Assembly: GCA_005772825.1 (NCBI GenBank)
Contig: SXIP01000047.1
Span: forward strand, 1-38,317
Source: Methylococcaceae bacterium
Lineage (GTDB): Bacteria; Pseudomonadota; Gammaproteobacteria; Methylococcales; Methylomonadaceae
Length of the DNA stretch: 38,317 nt
Direction of reading: 5' to 3'
Both the position numbers and the translations under genes were made by a program. Positions 13,663-38,317 of this stretch are shown piece after piece (within the stretch, counting starts at the first letter, position 1; each line of letters starts with the position of its first letter). The notes below the pieces were generated by a model. It was given only the letters and a program-made list of their open reading frames with translations. It was not told the DNA's origin and did no database searches.

Positions 13663-13929
13663 TTGAGTGCTTTAGGGTATGAATATTATTGAGATTTGCT
13701 GGTTAGTCGGTGTTCTATAGTTCAGGTAATCTGCAAAAGAAATGGATCAATAGAATAGAGGAATACCTTCATCATAAAACGGTAGCGTAAAATCTAAGTC
13801 TGACCGGCTTTTATGAATCTTCCATGTTGAACTGATCTTGGTCTAATGATGCCTATACTATCCTTTTTATAAAAATTTTTTCGGTATAACTTTCTATCTT
13901 ACTTTATGTGAAATTGAAAGCTTGTTCGT

Positions 13930-14997
13930 TTATCCCATCTCCCCCGCCTCACGATAAGAAACCATGCGCTGCCGTTCTTCGTCCCAGAGGCTTGCGCGGA
14001 AGCATTCGAGGATTTCGCCGGGCGCCAGTGACGTGGTTATCGGCGATTGCAGTTCGGGAATGGCGGCCATGGCTTCGGGTAGGCGATAGAACGGGATATG
14101 CACGTTGAGGTGATGGATGTGGTGATAGCCGATGTTGCCGGTGAACCATTGCATGACTTGGTTGAGTTGCAGGTAGCTTGAGGACTCCATCGCGGCCCGA
14201 TAGAAGGTCCAGGCTTCGGGCGAGATGATTTTCATGCGTTTGAAGCTGTGCTGGGCAAAAAACAGGTAGCTGCCCAGCGCCGATGCGATGGTCATCGGCA
14301 ACAAGATGACGAAGAAAGCCATCTCAAAACCGCCGAATATCCACAATGCGGCAATCAGTCCGCCATGCGCGAGCAGTGACAGTGCCGAATCCCAGTGCTT
14401 GTAAGGATCGCGAAATAGCGGTAACAGGCAGATGTTCAGGAAGAAAACCGTGAAATAACCGAATAACAGGGTCAAGGGATGGCGTTCAATACGGTAGCGG
14501 GCGCGTTCTGCCGTTGTCGCTTGACGCCACATTGTCGTGGATATAATAGGGAATGCGCCGACGCCGGTTAGGGAAATCTGGCCGACATGACCGTGATGGT
14601 AGTTGTGGCTTTTCTTCCATGAATTGGGGGGCGTGAGTCCGAAAGCGCCGTAGGCACGAAACAGTATTGCGGCCAGAATGGAATCCCTGAGAATGGTTCC
14701 GTGCATGTAGTCATGATATGTGATGAATGCGCGTACTATCAGCAGCGCGCCGAGCACGGATAAAACCATTCGGGCCGGCCACCAGGTCAGCAATCCGGCG
14801 CCGACCAGCGCTGCGATCATCAGTGTGAAAGTAATTCCTACGTGCCACCAGCTTTTTGTTCTGGATTCCACGGCAAAGGGCGTTGTCGCCGCCAACAGTT
14901 CTCGGCCCATTCGAATGTCGGCGCTGTGTTCGGGAATATCGGATTCCTGGCCGATAGTCTCTGCGTTTACTTCATTATTCAGGTTGCTTTGTTTCAT
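13930..14997 (-). CDS. Membrane fatty acid desaturase
   Basis: 355 residues with the three histidine boxes of the di-iron desaturase family: HDYMH (95-99), HNYHH (131-135) and HHIHH (292-296). Hydrophobic pairs at about 57-95 and 175-245 would span the inner membrane. It introduces a double bond into an acyl chain using O2 and electrons from a ferredoxin or cytochrome; position and carrier (acyl-lipid or acyl-CoA) are unknown. The ATG at 14997 has GGGGG 6 bases before it; the longer frame from 15021 lacks support. No electron-transfer partner lies beside it. Confidence 0.9.
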   Translation of the reverse strand: MKQSNLNNEVNAETIGQESDIPEHSADIRMGRELLAATTPFAVESRTKSWWHVGITFTLMIAALVGAGLLTWWPARMVLSVLGALLIVRAFITYHDYMHGTILRDSILAAILFRAYGAFGLTPPNSWKKSHNYHHGHVGQISLTGVGAFPIISTTMWRQATTAERARYRIERHPLTLLFGYFTVFFLNICLLPLFRDPYKHWDSALSLLAHGGLIAALWIFGGFEMAFFVILLPMTIASALGSYLFFAQHSFKRMKIISPEAWTFYRAAMESSSYLQLNQVMQWFTGNIGYHHIHHLNVHIPFYRLPEAMAAIPELQSPITTSLAPGEILECFRASLWDEERQRMVSYREAGEMG

Positions 14998-33289: not shown

Positions 33290-33581
33290 CTACGCGAGGG
33301 CTTGTTGCGCCGGTTCTTCCAAGTTCTCGCTGCCGGCCGCATCGTCGGCGATGGGCGTATCGGGCTGTATGGTCGTCAACAGGCTTTCCGCCTTCCAGCC
33401 GTTGGCGTGTATCGTCGCCATCGGCGTAACGGTTGTTCATCGCCGCCGTCAAATCCGCCCGTTGTGGGAGTTTGGCGAGATTCACATCCAAGTCGCCCCA
33501 GGTCACGTAAACCCGGTTTTCCTGGATGAATTTTTGTTCGTATTCGCCGTGCGAACCGGCGCGGATTAGCCAGATTGCCAT
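33290..33581 (-). pseudogene. Remnant of an Mrr-type restriction endonuclease gene
   Basis: The first ~50 codons from the ATG at 33581 read MAIWLIRAGSHGEYEQKFIQ ... RVYVTWGDLDVNL, the start of a restriction endonuclease family with an N-terminal EVE/PUA-like part and a C-terminal Mrr catalytic domain. Near 33395-33420 the frame shifts. A second frame continues ATIHANGWKAESLLTTIQPD ... DDAAGSENLEE, which looks like the linker just before the Mrr domain of the same family, and ends at TAG 33290. About 100 or more residues between them, and the catalytic domain, are missing: an internal deletion plus truncation. It follows the HEPN-like gene by 17 bases and was the last gene of the restriction operon. 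The assignment rests on pattern memory. Confidence 0.72.
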
Positions 33582-33598: not shown

Positions 33599-34177
33599 CT
33601 AAAAGCGCATCAAAGTATGAAGCATAAAATAACACTGCTTAACCACTTCATGATTTTCATCTTTTGGTTCCAGTTGACCATGTACTAAATGGCAGCGAAT
33701 TTGATAGATAATCTCAAGAAAACCGTTAAATAGCAAAGATTTATCTGCCGTAAGTTTTAGGGTCTTGCTAATAGTTATGCCCTGAGCACGGGGTTTAACA
33801 ATAAGGCTTCCGTAAGTTAGATTTGGTTTTGGTGTAAGCACGCAATTCTCAAAAGTAATCACGCTACTAGCTTGCGTTTCATCCCATAGAAGCTCTGCTC
33901 TAACCAACGAGAAAGAAAGTGCTTCAATGTTACTAATAAGTTCAGCATGCTCTTTTGTACCTTCGACTTGCAACAATTTATCAAAGCGGGCGAATAGCTT
34001 ATTTCGGGTGCTGTGGTCCTCTCGCAATTTATTCAAAAAATCCCTATCGCGTTTTGATGTAATTTCCGAGTAGTGTGAGCGATACCATGAATTTGTCGAC
34101 AACCATAAAATTACTAGTTGCGGAAAATAATCGACCTCGGCTTTTGCCCGCCATTCCTTGTAGTAATCTCCGCTCAC
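33599..34177 (-). CDS. HEPN-like protein in the restriction-modification operon
   Basis: 192 residues, cytosolic, mostly helical at both ends with a central beta part (about 105-145). Near the C-terminus, YQIRCHLVHGQLEP has the R-x4-H pattern (R161, H166) and flanking residues of HEPN RNase/toxin domains (typically vRcnlfHG). HEPN proteins often accompany restriction and abortive-infection loci as RNA-cutting or toxin/antitoxin modules. The specific family is not recognised. GTG start; GTGA overlap with the hsdS stop means translational coupling. Base composition looks more AT-rich than hsdM, as for hsdS, suggesting a mosaic operon. Confidence 0.75.
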   Translation of the reverse strand: MSGDYYKEWRAKAEVDYFPQLVILWLSTNSWYRSHYSEITSKRDRDFLNKLREDHSTRNKLFARFDKLLQVEGTKEHAELISNIEALSFSLVRAELLWDETQASSVITFENCVLTPKPNLTYGSLIVKPRAQGITISKTLKLTADKSLLFNGFLEIIYQIRCHLVHGQLEPKDENHEVVKQCYFMLHTLMRF

Positions 34178-35574
34178 GAATTTGCCTCCAGATAAGTTAA
34201 AGCTGCTTCTTCACTCTGTTTAATTGCAATTTCAACCGCGCGTTTGGCGGATTCGAGGAGATGGGCGGCACGTTGTTTGGCTAGGCGTGCTGATTGTAGA
34301 GATTGTTCAACCGCCTTTTCAGTCGCCGTTGAAAATTTTGGAACGGGCAGATTCAACAAATCGGATTCGGAAATCGCCGGGTACATGCTGGCGCTGGTGT
34401 ACAAATCCATCAATTTGCAGATGATGGGTAATCGGAGATAGGTCACCAATACATCACCACTGATTTGCTTAGGCTGCAAAACGACAAAACCCGAAGAACA
34501 AACAAAGCCGTCTTGCTGTTCGCTAATCAACGCCGACAAACGCCGATTAGGCCGCACTGTAGAAGTTATGACATCGTTGGTTCTGACGTGCTGCGTTGCT
34601 CGGCTTGGCGCTTCGCGTTGGAGGATACATTGCGACTCAGCTGTTCCATCGCTATTTAGCGCGCCAATTTCGATGTAATAAAACTCGCCAGTTTCGTTGC
34701 GCGTAAACCTTTCTTTTCTGGCAGGCGCTACGTCTCTTATTTTTTGGCCGTCGCAACTCAGTCGCTTGAGCAACTGGTCAATGCCGGGATTAAAAAACTC
34801 GGCATCCAAGCGTCTGGCCGCGAAGGTATCGCTGCTGTTGCGAACGTAGCTAAGCAATTCTGGAGCTTGCCAATTTTCCAAACCAAGTGCCCGTTCAAGT
34901 AACCGTGATGCAACTTCAAATTGCCGTAACGAAGATTTTCGAGCTGACTCAGCATTCTGAAAAAACAACGCAATATTCGCCTGAAAATTTGGACTAAGTC
35001 GAGGAATCGGCACCTTACGACCGTCATCAAGGCTCAAATGTAATTGCACATTTCCTTGAAATTGTCGCCATAAAAGCTGTTCACCTATTGAGCTATTCAG
35101 GTAGGCGACAATTGCTTCAGGTTTGTAATGATTCAAACCATAAGAAGATAAAGTGGTCGCGATAGTATCTTGGCTGGTATTGCAGAAATCCACAGTTACA
35201 AGAGAAGCAGCGGGACATGCTGTTTTTGATAAAACGATGTCTCCACGACGCAACTCAGTTTTTCTCTCAGATTGGTGAATTGCTTCAGGAATCCTTGCAA
35301 GATTACTCTCATCGATAACGCCACGGCGTAAATTTAAAATCCGAAGAAACGGTATTCCGTCGTCCGTGTACGAGTCAGCGTTGATGTCGAATATCCCTTT
35401 AACAAATCGGGCAAATAGGGCCCCCAACTCGTCATGTCCATCCGGATAAGCTCGAACAGCTGAATCTGCGGCAAGCATCGGCTTGGAGAAATATCCACTG
35501 TCCAAACGAAGTTTCAAATTCTCCCGCTGTACTTCGGACAAAAGAAGCTCGGTTATTTCCAGCCCCTCCAACAA
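34174..35574 (-). CDS. hsdS: Type I-like restriction-modification specificity subunit (HsdS)
   Basis: 466 residues. Two target-recognition halves, each followed by a helical spacer: half 1 has GDIVLSKTACPAASLVTVDF and IPRLSPNFQANIALFFQNAE, half 2 has TNDVITSTVRPNRRLSALIS, SASMYPAISESDLLNLPVPK and a long helix. It directs methylation and cleavage to a bipartite DNA site with the M subunit upstream. The TTG at 35574 is the annotated start, but the frame is open upstream and codes FDEARYSRLLEGLEI. The codon that would overlap the hsdM stop is ATA (35607-35605), where an ATG would be normal. The stop overlaps the HEPN-like gene. Confidence 0.85.
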   Translation of the reverse strand: MLEGLEITELLLSEVQRENLKLRLDSGYFSKPMLAADSAVRAYPDGHDELGALFARFVKGIFDINADSYTDDGIPFLRILNLRRGVIDESNLARIPEAIHQSERKTELRRGDIVLSKTACPAASLVTVDFCNTSQDTIATTLSSYGLNHYKPEAIVAYLNSSIGEQLLWRQFQGNVQLHLSLDDGRKVPIPRLSPNFQANIALFFQNAESARKSSLRQFEVASRLLERALGLENWQAPELLSYVRNSSDTFAARRLDAEFFNPGIDQLLKRLSCDGQKIRDVAPARKERFTRNETGEFYYIEIGALNSDGTAESQCILQREAPSRATQHVRTNDVITSTVRPNRRLSALISEQQDGFVCSSGFVVLQPKQISGDVLVTYLRLPIICKLMDLYTSASMYPAISESDLLNLPVPKFSTATEKAVEQSLQSARLAKQRAAHLLESAKRAVEIAIKQSEEAALTYLEANS

Positions 35575-35603: not shown

Positions 35604-37745
35604 CTATTGAAAAAAACTTAAGTTCTCTTTCTTGGCAAATTCGATAAAGGCTTCGGCGATGCCGTCATCAGTCAAGCCATCGTGATTGAATAAATCATGC
35701 TTGATGATCAAATGACCGTGCGCGTCCAGCAGCGGCGAGCCGTCTTCCGTCTGCCGGTAGATTTTGTCGCCGGAGTTGTCCTTGCTGGGTTCGCGCATCG
35801 TGGCGAAGAAAATTGGGTAATCGGCTTGTCTGGGGCATAGCGGCCCGGCGTTCGGGTCGTCGTTCCACTTCTGCACGAACAACACGCTGGTTTTGGTGCC
35901 GGTGTGCGGTTTGAAGACGTTGCCGTGCAAGCCGACCACGGCCAGGATGCGGCAATGGGCGGCTAGATAGTCGCGCAAATCCTTGTCGCTGGCGTTGTTG
36001 AAGCGGCCTTGCGGCAATACCACGGCCATGCGACCGCCGGGTTTGAGGAATGACAAGTTGCGTTCGATAAACAGGATGTCGCGGCCAACGTTGTTCTGGT
36101 TTTTCACCTTGACCTTGCGGTAAGTGCCGTCGGCCATTTGGTAGATGGTTTCGTGCGCCGCGTGCAGGGCTTCGGCGAAACCGGGTGCTTTGCTGCGGGC
36201 GTCGACGATGTTGGCGTCGTTGGGATCGACCTTGCTGATTTTGTCCAGGCTGACCGAACGGGCCAAGTCGTATTTGGCCAGGATGCGGGTTTCCTTGATG
36301 TCGCCGGCAAACGGCGGGTTGGCCATCAGTATGTCGAAACCGAAATCGCGGTTACTGGCTTTATCCTGGCGCAGTTTGCGCAGGCGCTTCCAGCCTTCGC
36401 CATAAACGTCGCTCCAGGCTTCGTCGTTGGTTTTTTCGTCCCAGCGTTCGTAATCCAGGGTGTTAAGGTGCAGGACGTTGGTTTGGCCATCGCCGGCGAT
36501 CAGGTTGAGGGTGCGACCGACACGCACGGCTTTTTCGTCGAAATCGATGGCAAACACTTTGCTACGCACGTAGTCTTCGCAACGGGCCGGTTTTTTCTCG
36601 GTGGTGAACAAATGGCTTTTGCTCAAGCCTTCTTCCTTCATGATTTGTTCCCAGACGTGAAAGATACCATGCACCGGAAAGCCGCAACTGCCGGCTGCGG
36701 TGTCAATCAGGGTTTCGTGTTCTTGCGGATTCATCATCTTCACGCACATATCAATGACGTAGCGCGGCGTGAAGTATTGGCCTTTTTCACCTTTGCTGGA
36801 TTTGTTGATCAGGTATTCGAAGGCTTCGTCCACCACTTCCAGGTTGGAATTGAACAGTTTGACCTTTTCCAGCGACGACACGCACACCGCTAAATGGCTG
36901 GGCGTCAGGTCGATTTTGGCGCCGTCCGGGAACACGCCTTCCCATTTATCGCGGGCTTTGTCGAACAGGTCTTGAATTTTGGCTTTGAGTTCGGTTTCGG
37001 TGTCGCCGTAGTTTTTGAAAACCAGGTGGCGCTTGCGGTCGCGGCCGCTTTCCAGTTCGTCGTAGAGTTTGGTGAAAATCAGCTTGAACAGCTCTTCGAA
37101 CACATCGACGCCGGCATTGGCGAGCACCTCGTCTTCCATCTCCAGGATCAGGTCTTTGAGCGATTTTTTCTCATTGACCAGTTTGTCGAGCTTGACCAAG
37201 TCGTCAATCGTCCAGCGTTCGCTGAGAATGTCGGACAGTTTTTCGTGCGCCGACGGAATGGCCGGGATGTCTTCGAAGTAGTTGGGGTCTTTGCGGTGGT
37301 AATAGGAGATTTGTTCACCGTTGGTCCAAACGCCCATCGGTGCGCCGGTGGCGTTGCAGTAACTTTTCAGCTGTTCCTTGCCGTCCTTGAGTTTGGGTTT
37401 TTTCAGCTCGACCAAAATGTACGGCGTGGTGGTTTTGTCCTTGTCGAAGATGCAGATGTCGGCGCGTTTCTTTTCGCGGCCGAAGGTGACTTCGTGCTCG
37501 ACTTCCATCCGGCTGACGGGGTAGCCCAAATCATCGCGCAACACCATCAGGTAAAGCTGACGCACCGCTTCTTCCGGCGTTAGTTTGATCGGCTTGCCGC
37601 GTACCAGGCAAGTGACGTAGGGCGCTGGCTTTTTCGCGGTTTCTTTGAGCGAAATACCGGCTTCCAGCGCTTGAATTTGCTCGGCTTTGAATTGGTTGAG
37701 TTTATAGGCGCTGTCTTTCAACAGTTCGGCGATGGTGTTGGTCAT
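35604..37745 (-). CDS. N6-adenine DNA methylase with N-terminal PD-(D/E)XK nuclease domain
   Basis: 713 residues, longer than a standard HsdM. Residues about 40-150 match the HsdR N-terminal (HSDR_N_2) nuclease fold: LTPEEAVRQLYLMVL, E81/E83/E85, RADICIF with D96 and VELKK with E113 and K115, then WTNG. A helical linker leads to the methylase: GQYFTPRYV (322-330, motif X), DTAAGSCGF (348-356, motif I, unusual for DPxxGSGGF) and NPPF (476-479, catalytic motif IV). No separate hsdR exists, so cleavage could come from this subunit, as in BcgI-type enzymes where A (nuclease-methylase) works with B (specificity). AAGGA abuts the ATG with almost no spacer, an odd ribosome binding site. Confidence 0.88.
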   Translation of the reverse strand: MTNTIAELLKDSAYKLNQFKAEQIQALEAGISLKETAKKPAPYVTCLVRGKPIKLTPEEAVRQLYLMVLRDDLGYPVSRMEVEHEVTFGREKKRADICIFDKDKTTTPYILVELKKPKLKDGKEQLKSYCNATGAPMGVWTNGEQISYYHRKDPNYFEDIPAIPSAHEKLSDILSERWTIDDLVKLDKLVNEKKSLKDLILEMEDEVLANAGVDVFEELFKLIFTKLYDELESGRDRKRHLVFKNYGDTETELKAKIQDLFDKARDKWEGVFPDGAKIDLTPSHLAVCVSSLEKVKLFNSNLEVVDEAFEYLINKSSKGEKGQYFTPRYVIDMCVKMMNPQEHETLIDTAAGSCGFPVHGIFHVWEQIMKEEGLSKSHLFTTEKKPARCEDYVRSKVFAIDFDEKAVRVGRTLNLIAGDGQTNVLHLNTLDYERWDEKTNDEAWSDVYGEGWKRLRKLRQDKASNRDFGFDILMANPPFAGDIKETRILAKYDLARSVSLDKISKVDPNDANIVDARSKAPGFAEALHAAHETIYQMADGTYRKVKVKNQNNVGRDILFIERNLSFLKPGGRMAVVLPQGRFNNASDKDLRDYLAAHCRILAVVGLHGNVFKPHTGTKTSVLFVQKWNDDPNAGPLCPRQADYPIFFATMREPSKDNSGDKIYRQTEDGSPLLDAHGHLIIKHDLFNHDGLTDDGIAEAFIEFAKKENLSFFQ

Positions 37746-38286: not shown

Positions 38287-38317
38287 TGGTCGGGACGACA
38301 GGATTTGAACCTGCTAC
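38287..38317 (-). tRNA. tRNA-Pro, 3' end only
   Basis: The minus strand reads GCAGG-TTCAAAT-CCTGT (T arm) then CGTCCCG-A-CCA: acceptor 3' strand, discriminator A and encoded CCA. A 5' acceptor strand CGGGACG is implied, and first pair C1:G72 with A73 is the tRNA-Pro identity pattern. The anticodon lies beyond the window. The restriction island begins right after its 3' end. Confidence 0.8.

Follow-up and report, generated by a model that had tools for sequence, protein, structure and literature searches.

An adjacent pair of genes in a Methylococcaceae genome, here called M and S, probably encodes a stand-alone, ATP-independent Type IIB restriction-modification (R-M) enzyme resembling BcgI and BsaXI, which would both methylate and cleave DNA. 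The domain composition, the conserved catalytic residues, the gene order, and the lack of a visible translocase partner are established; so is the linkage, in the sampled genomes, between the pair and a third gene behind it, H. A methylase carrying its own nuclease is an already-known kind of enzyme; the form that bears H is a new variant. The window (the whole stretch of DNA analyzed, 38,317 nucleotides) is an entire contig, C23, of a genome that is 77% complete and lies in 292 contigs. All of its features for which coordinates are given below are on the reverse strand.

Domain organization of M and its relatives

M (35604..37745) is an uninterrupted open reading frame of 713 aa that starts with ATG and encodes an RM subunit consisting of a nuclease, a connector, and an N6-adenine methylase. 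Pfam places a PD-(D/E)XK (HSDR_N_2) domain at residues 57 to 164 (37254..37577; E = 2.4e-30), and residues 80 to 154 also match HSDR_N (E = 4.9e-6). The motifs RADICIF (residues 94 to 100), VELKK (112 to 116), and TNG (141 to 143), from which an earlier note on this DNA had read an HsdR_N-type nuclease fold, are indeed found inside this domain, for which the predicted secondary structure is a helix (57 to 72), three strands (80 to 88, 91 to 100, and 108 to 113), a second helix (119 to 133), and a final strand (137 to 141). The further claim that the nuclease is joined to an HsdM-type methylase and followed by HsdS agrees with the N6_Mtase core at residues 303 to 488 (36282..36839; Pfam and motif conservation), a second methylase block matching Eco57I at residues 556 to 610 (35916..36080; Pfam), and a specificity-type protein downstream. 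Motif IV of the methylase reads ANPPFA (residues 475 to 480).

Relatives of M were collected by a scan of genome contigs that returned 434 stretches, 422 of which are relatives. The best 80 of these 422, together with four plasmid loci, nine loci from related genomes, and the window itself, make up an alignment of 94 rows, from which a copy of the window (L001) was excluded. The rows span Pseudomonadota, Bacteroidota, Thermodesulfobacteriota, Chloroflexota, Bacillota, Campylobacterota, Ignavibacteriota, Fibrobacterota, and cyanobacterial plasmids. A mechanical sort gave 78 rows with a separate gene directly behind M, 13 with an M of at least 900 aa, and 3 with neither. In nine of the rows the open frame is long, at 1158 to 1249 aa (two of these rows are identical in M), and both of the long frames that were scanned (L002 and L040) have a C-terminal Methylase_S domain. 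Among the relatives the M-S pair recurs with variable neighbors.

Motif I of M, DTAAGSCGF (residues 348 to 356; 36678-36704), had been described as deviant. Its form is odd, but it is not a defect, since it is identical in 72 of the 94 rows and is thus a family trait; a dead methylase, as might be read from a degenerate motif I, was rejected on these grounds.

Three further relatives come from prophages or a phage-like contig. Those in a Mycobacterium abscessus prophage (L165, with a second gene behind M) and a Helicobacter heilmannii prophage (L167, a chain of 807 aa) keep the D-ExK residues, and another relative (L166) is located in a phage-like contig. In Bacteroides fragilis Q1F2, 183 bp of the M connector (residues ~178 to 238) recur 4 kb downstream as an inverted copy at 99% (L036:9526-9708 and 13777-13959). 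This copy, which has no counterpart in the six further Bacteroidales loci inspected, is possibly a relic or an inversion substrate.

The nuclease active site and its counterpart in BsaXI

Alanine mutants of BsaXI at E73, D90, E105, and K107 are inactive (PMC11997821). The equivalent residues of M are E83 (37497-37499), D96 (37458-37460), E113 (37407-37409), and K115 (37401-37403), the codons of which span 37401..37499; the ExK pair, E113/K115, is aligned to BsaXI by a profile, and the pairing of D96 with D90 needs a two-residue gap. The nuclease residues that had looked intact thus correspond to residues proven by mutation. They are also conserved among homologues, as was checked for D96, E113, and K115 in particular: E83/D96/E113/K115 (EDEK) is kept in 92 of the 93 rows that are readable there, one row being incomplete before the first four active-site positions, and with Q125 and Y129 added, EDEKQY is found in 92 of all 94. 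The exception to EDEK is a Mad2 protein of a MADS system (L005), which reads DENEGL at the six positions.

A profile built from 38 relatives of M has RM.BsaXI as its best match in the PDB (8.3e-29), with both domains aligned. The methylase part contributes 4.3e-24; the nuclease part (18-123 to 9-119) is weak when taken alone (i-E = 0.0024). Foldseek with the structure model of M ranks BsaXI first to third (best 6e-16, 710 columns), with TM scores by query length of 0.32 to 0.34. VIA comparison of the model with BsaXI yields Z scores of 19.8 to 20.5, and the aligned ranges of the model take in the N terminus; the rmsd is 13.7 to 15.5, so the relative placement of the domains is not fixed by the alignment. 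Methylase chains predominate in the search with the model, and VIA Z scores for methylase-only chains are as high as those for BsaXI. The full-length model is moderate in quality (mean pLDDT, 64.5), with values of 72 to 89 over residues 1 to 110, ~60 over 111 to 150, and mostly <50 over 170 to 325.

M-S and BsaXI (RM.BsaXI plus S.BsaXI) share an N-terminal PD-(D/E)XK domain, a helical connector, a gamma-class N6 methylase, equivalent E-D-ExK catalytic residues, and a separate S subunit with two target recognition domains (TRDs). They differ in that RM.BsaXI has 916 aa and M 713 aa, that the sequence similarity of the nucleases is weak, that motif I of M is DTAAGSCGF, and that M-S is accompanied by a HEPN-like third gene. 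The knob and paddle of BsaXI are probably absent from M or different in it. Part of the cleavage function of BsaXI is reported to lie in its C-terminal paddle (PMC11997821), and the shorter M protein probably lacks a paddle of that type. BcgI, the prototype of Type IIB, is similar by its description (PMC3874165) in having an RM plus S organization without a translocase; among four RM plus S models, its REase domain is given as the one that does not superpose (PMC11997821). The single-chain Type IIB/IIG enzymes AloI and CjeI, for which a length of ~1250 aa is quoted (PMC3874165), are matched by the several relatives of M that are R-M-S chains of 1158 to 1249 aa, whereas M and S are separate genes in the window.

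The Type IIB features found in M-S are a single chain that joins an N-terminal PD-(D/E)XK nuclease to a gamma-class N6 methylase, catalytic residues equivalent to those of BsaXI, a two-TRD S subunit, and, within the visible DNA, no separate R or translocase subunit. The BcgI-like (Type IIB/IIG) arrangement proposed in the earlier note is in this way backed by homology, predicted fold, conservation of catalytic residues, and gene neighborhoods.

The specificity subunit

S (34174..35574) begins 29 bp after M, which is the commonest spacing among the relatives (32 rows), and encodes a protein of 466 aa. It matches the PADLOC Specificity_I models and, weakly, MAD5, and has no match in Pfam. In an alignment of 64 S proteins of 400 to 520 aa, conservation is highest at the N terminus and in two blocks (~221 to 260 and ~421 to 460), and the stretches between these are more variable. 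This is the pattern expected for two TRDs and indicates a two-TRD specificity subunit. Two layouts of the S gene were observed in Bacteroidales, one in L034, L036, and L057 and the other in L035, L043, and L044: S has either 712 to 715 aa, including an additional S-like part, or 457 to 475 aa with a separate S-like open reading frame of 141 to 264 aa. These layouts possibly reflect a reshuffling of TRDs.

Search for an HsdR

Classical Type I systems are distinguished by an HsdR with an SF2 translocase, and none is found beside M-S. The contig ends 572 bp upstream of the start of M, so the absence of an adjoining HsdR applies to the window up to that point. In 43 of the 94 compared loci the sequence reaches 4 kb or more upstream of M and 5.5 kb or more downstream; the other 51 fall short on at least one side. 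Four of 47 neighboring proteins of at least 650 aa match ResIII, and a motif scan of the neighborhoods flagged 13 open reading frames, including an M protein. Among the flagged frames that were scanned individually, a single HsdR was identified in the 94 loci, L058:1020-3404 (HSDR_N, ResIII, and EcoEI_R_C), and it is followed by its own HsdM-S fusion. The genome of the window has 14 ResIII matches, of which eight have loci and six are weaker. The eight are PriA, RecG, Lhr, RapA, a pair of SNF2 proteins, one DEAD-box helicase, and one ResIII/DEAD protein that has no HsdR_N match; no HsdR was thus recognized in this 77%-complete genome among the eight located matches of the 14. A search of the same genome with PF04313 had no match and carries no weight, as it also missed the domain of M itself (27 bits).

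The claim that no HsdR is present accordingly stands for all visible DNA and for the relatives, in none of which does an HsdR belong to the M-S pair; it does not extend beyond the point 572 bp upstream where the contig stops. Given that limit and the short flanks of 51 of the 94 rows, a helper unlinked to M-S may exist. A Type I system with a lost or borrowed HsdR, in which the N-terminal domain of M would be a relic and an unlinked HsdR would cut, is nevertheless very unlikely. The HsdR_N-like character of that domain and the incompleteness of the genome favor it, but the six residues E83, D96, E113, K115, Q125, and Y129 would not have stayed conserved across 92 of 93 rows in a relic, and the eight ResIII proteins located in the genome are those named above, with the ResIII/DEAD protein lacking an HsdR_N match. 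A Type I system that has lost its HsdR was rejected on two grounds: the catalytic residues are conserved, and the relatives of M-S come without an HsdR of their own in the DNA visible around them.

Comparison with MADS

Among curated profiles, M scores best against MAD2 (320 bits; cut-off, 720) and S against MAD5 (88 bits; cut-off, 400). M is homologous to Mad2 over most of its length, and S is related to Mad5; the M-S and MADS Mad2/Mad5 families are clearly related. These matches speak for a MADS/BREX-like pair, in which M-S would only mark DNA, the N-terminal domain would be structural, and restriction would fall to other proteins. We regard this as quite improbable, for both scores are far under their cut-offs and no kinase (MAD6) or other MAD gene follows S in the window, where the downstream genes are H, a gene remnant, and a DUF1287 gene. 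True Mad2 proteins score 760 to 1016 bits; L005 is one of them (844 bits), with MAD5, MAD6, and MAD7 alongside. A class-wide search with NF047738 found 0 of 369 genomes above the cut-off, and a phylum-wide search with NF047741 found 2 of 398.

The state of the active site also argues against such a pair. We compared 20 proteins: six MADS Mad2 proteins, a solitary methylase with no S gene following (L164), and 13 others, including M of the window. Assignment to Mad2 followed from scores above the cut-off for L005, L105, and L107 and from neighboring above-cut-off MAD6 matches for L161 and L162, and L163 was taken as Mad2 on its ~71% identity to L105 and a 1385-aa frame behind S. Both E113 and K115 are lost in all six Mad2 proteins, which read DEVNVA, DDIFAK, DDVEVV, DDQRGV, DDIDLM, and DDVCSY at the six positions, and in L164 (DGVADL). 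D96, E113, and K115 are kept in all 13 others, that is, in M and the other 12 non-MADS proteins apart from L164; E83 is replaced by Q in L167 and Y129 by N in L109. An S is evident for part of these 13: in L103, L106, and L165 the gene behind M carries no name or a different one, and L108, L109, L110, and L167 each consist of one longer chain, in which Pfam recognizes no S part for L108 to L110. Three of the 13 (L103, L104, and L106) score 626 to 635 bits for MAD2 (NCBIfam), close under the cut-off, and are thus nearer to MADS than M of the window is; their active site is kept nonetheless. MADS membership of M-S was ruled out by score, gene content, and active-site state.

The HsdR_N-like domain itself is retained in all six of the Mad2 proteins examined, despite the loss of ExK. 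From these sequences, the nuclease may have been kept where M-S works alone and may have decayed where MADS effectors are present. The MADS restriction mechanism is listed as unknown in a 2026 review (PMC12904381).

The HEPN-like third gene

Behind S, the operon continues further than first noted, with H (33599..34177) and then the remnant of a gene, R (33293..33581). H encodes a HEPN-like protein of 192 aa, identified by a conserved motif and a weak fold match, and overlaps S by 4 bases. HEPN-type motifs have the form R-x4-6-H, and H has such a motif as R161-x4-H166 (33680-33697), which is invariant in all 14 H proteins. W9, D16, W25, N29, W31, R45, E155, Y158, G167, and P171 are also invariant. 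The structure model of H is good (pLDDT, 86.4). Its best VIA match is RnlA, and this match is weak (Z, 3.5; rmsd, 4.3; 87 aligned); we take residues 247 to 357 of RnlA to be its HEPN part. Foldseek returned nothing below an E value of 2.9, the H profile has no match in the PDB, and no Pfam HEPN or ATPase model matches H above the cut-off. One of the 14 H proteins has a weak match to the Pfam model HEPN_MAE_28990 (E = 0.13).

H is present in 14 of the 94 rows. On the M tree it requires 12 changes, whereas shuffles require 13.2 and 91 of 500 shuffles are as low; H thus comes and goes. This scatter, together with the presence of Mrr and DUF262 genes near M-S in some loci, is what would be expected if H were a defense-island passenger outside the system. 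Such a role for H is unlikely, because in all 14 rows it directly follows S (or, in L016, the long M) at a spacing of -56 to +11 bp. Furthermore, H matches were found in 6 genomes of the 369-genome sample (3 strong) and in 4 of the 398-genome sample (all strong), and in all five distinct genomes with a strong match (that of the window, G288, G096, G600, and G867) H is directly behind M-S. For the three weak matches (19 to 22 bits; G350, G203, and G339), no M, S, or H was recognized alongside. In view of this linkage in the sampled genomes, H seems to be a dedicated partner of some of the M-S pairs.

At least 16 clades of HEPN proteins are described as linked to R-M systems, and PrrC-like gating has been proposed for them (PMC3710099). 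H resembles PrrC/EcoprrI and other HEPN-RM pairs in being a HEPN-type gene behind an R-M pair (PMC3710099). It differs from them in being small, in matching no Pfam HEPN or ATPase model above the cut-off, and in having a partner that is Type IIB-like and not Type I. Among the papers listed by a literature search on HEPN with Type IIB, the two terms did not appear together.

R is a decayed gene for an Mrr_cat-type endonuclease (PADLOC PDC-S02). Its first 51 aa are 82% identical to an intact 346-aa protein (L074:13184-14224) and are followed by a short out-of-frame piece; Mrr_cat is located at residues 203 to 315 of the intact protein, and the remnant lacks this catalytic part. HNH-like and integrase-like genes, judged by eye, follow the intact copy. 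The gene next after R in the window encodes DUF1287 (Pfam). On a Klebsiella plasmid (L003:13687-16916), two DUF262 genes come after an M-S-H operon; DUF262 is given as a domain of GmrS (PMC4619093).

The 3' end of a tRNA is a usual insertion site of islands. An apparent tRNA 3' end (38287..38317), seen by eye at the contig edge on the M side, is a possible island boundary; ARAGORN calls no tRNA in the window. An island flanked by the tRNA, with a direct repeat at the opposite end, was considered; the window holds no second copy of the tRNA tail, which leaves the boundary unproven.

Proposed mechanism and implications

In the mechanism that we propose, two M chains and one S chain would assemble, and the two TRDs of S would recognize the two half-sites of a bipartite target. 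On host DNA, the methylase domains would add an N6-methyl group to one adenine per half-site. Where both adenines are unmethylated, the PD-(D/E)XK domains, with E83, D96, E113, and K115, are predicted to cut outside the site at fixed distances, probably on both sides and after several complexes have met. H is probably cotranslated with S because it overlaps S, and it would be a dedicated third component of the subtype, most likely a HEPN ribonuclease. The M-S complex may hold H in check and release it when phages defeat the complex, as a PrrC-like second line; this gating is the least certain step of the mechanism, and we consider it rather doubtful.

A broader proposal, which we offer tentatively, is that M-S-H is a three-gene class with a HEPN RNase restrained by the complex and that MADS was derived from M-S stock. 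If this is true, DNA cutting would come first in M-S-H and an RNA-cleaving shutdown second. MADS would then have arisen by inactivation of the fused nuclease and recruitment of a kinase and other effectors, the M-S family would represent the working ancestor type, and the restriction step of MADS would become testable.

For the family at large, proteins annotated as "N-6 DNA methylase" in several phyla, plasmids, and prophages become predicted self-contained Type IIB enzymes whose nuclease should be active. Whether ExK is kept or lost provides a one-look rule for separating M-S pairs that cut from MADS pairs, and the tight linkage of M, S, and H gives a Type IIB system a HEPN-like partner that can be tested.
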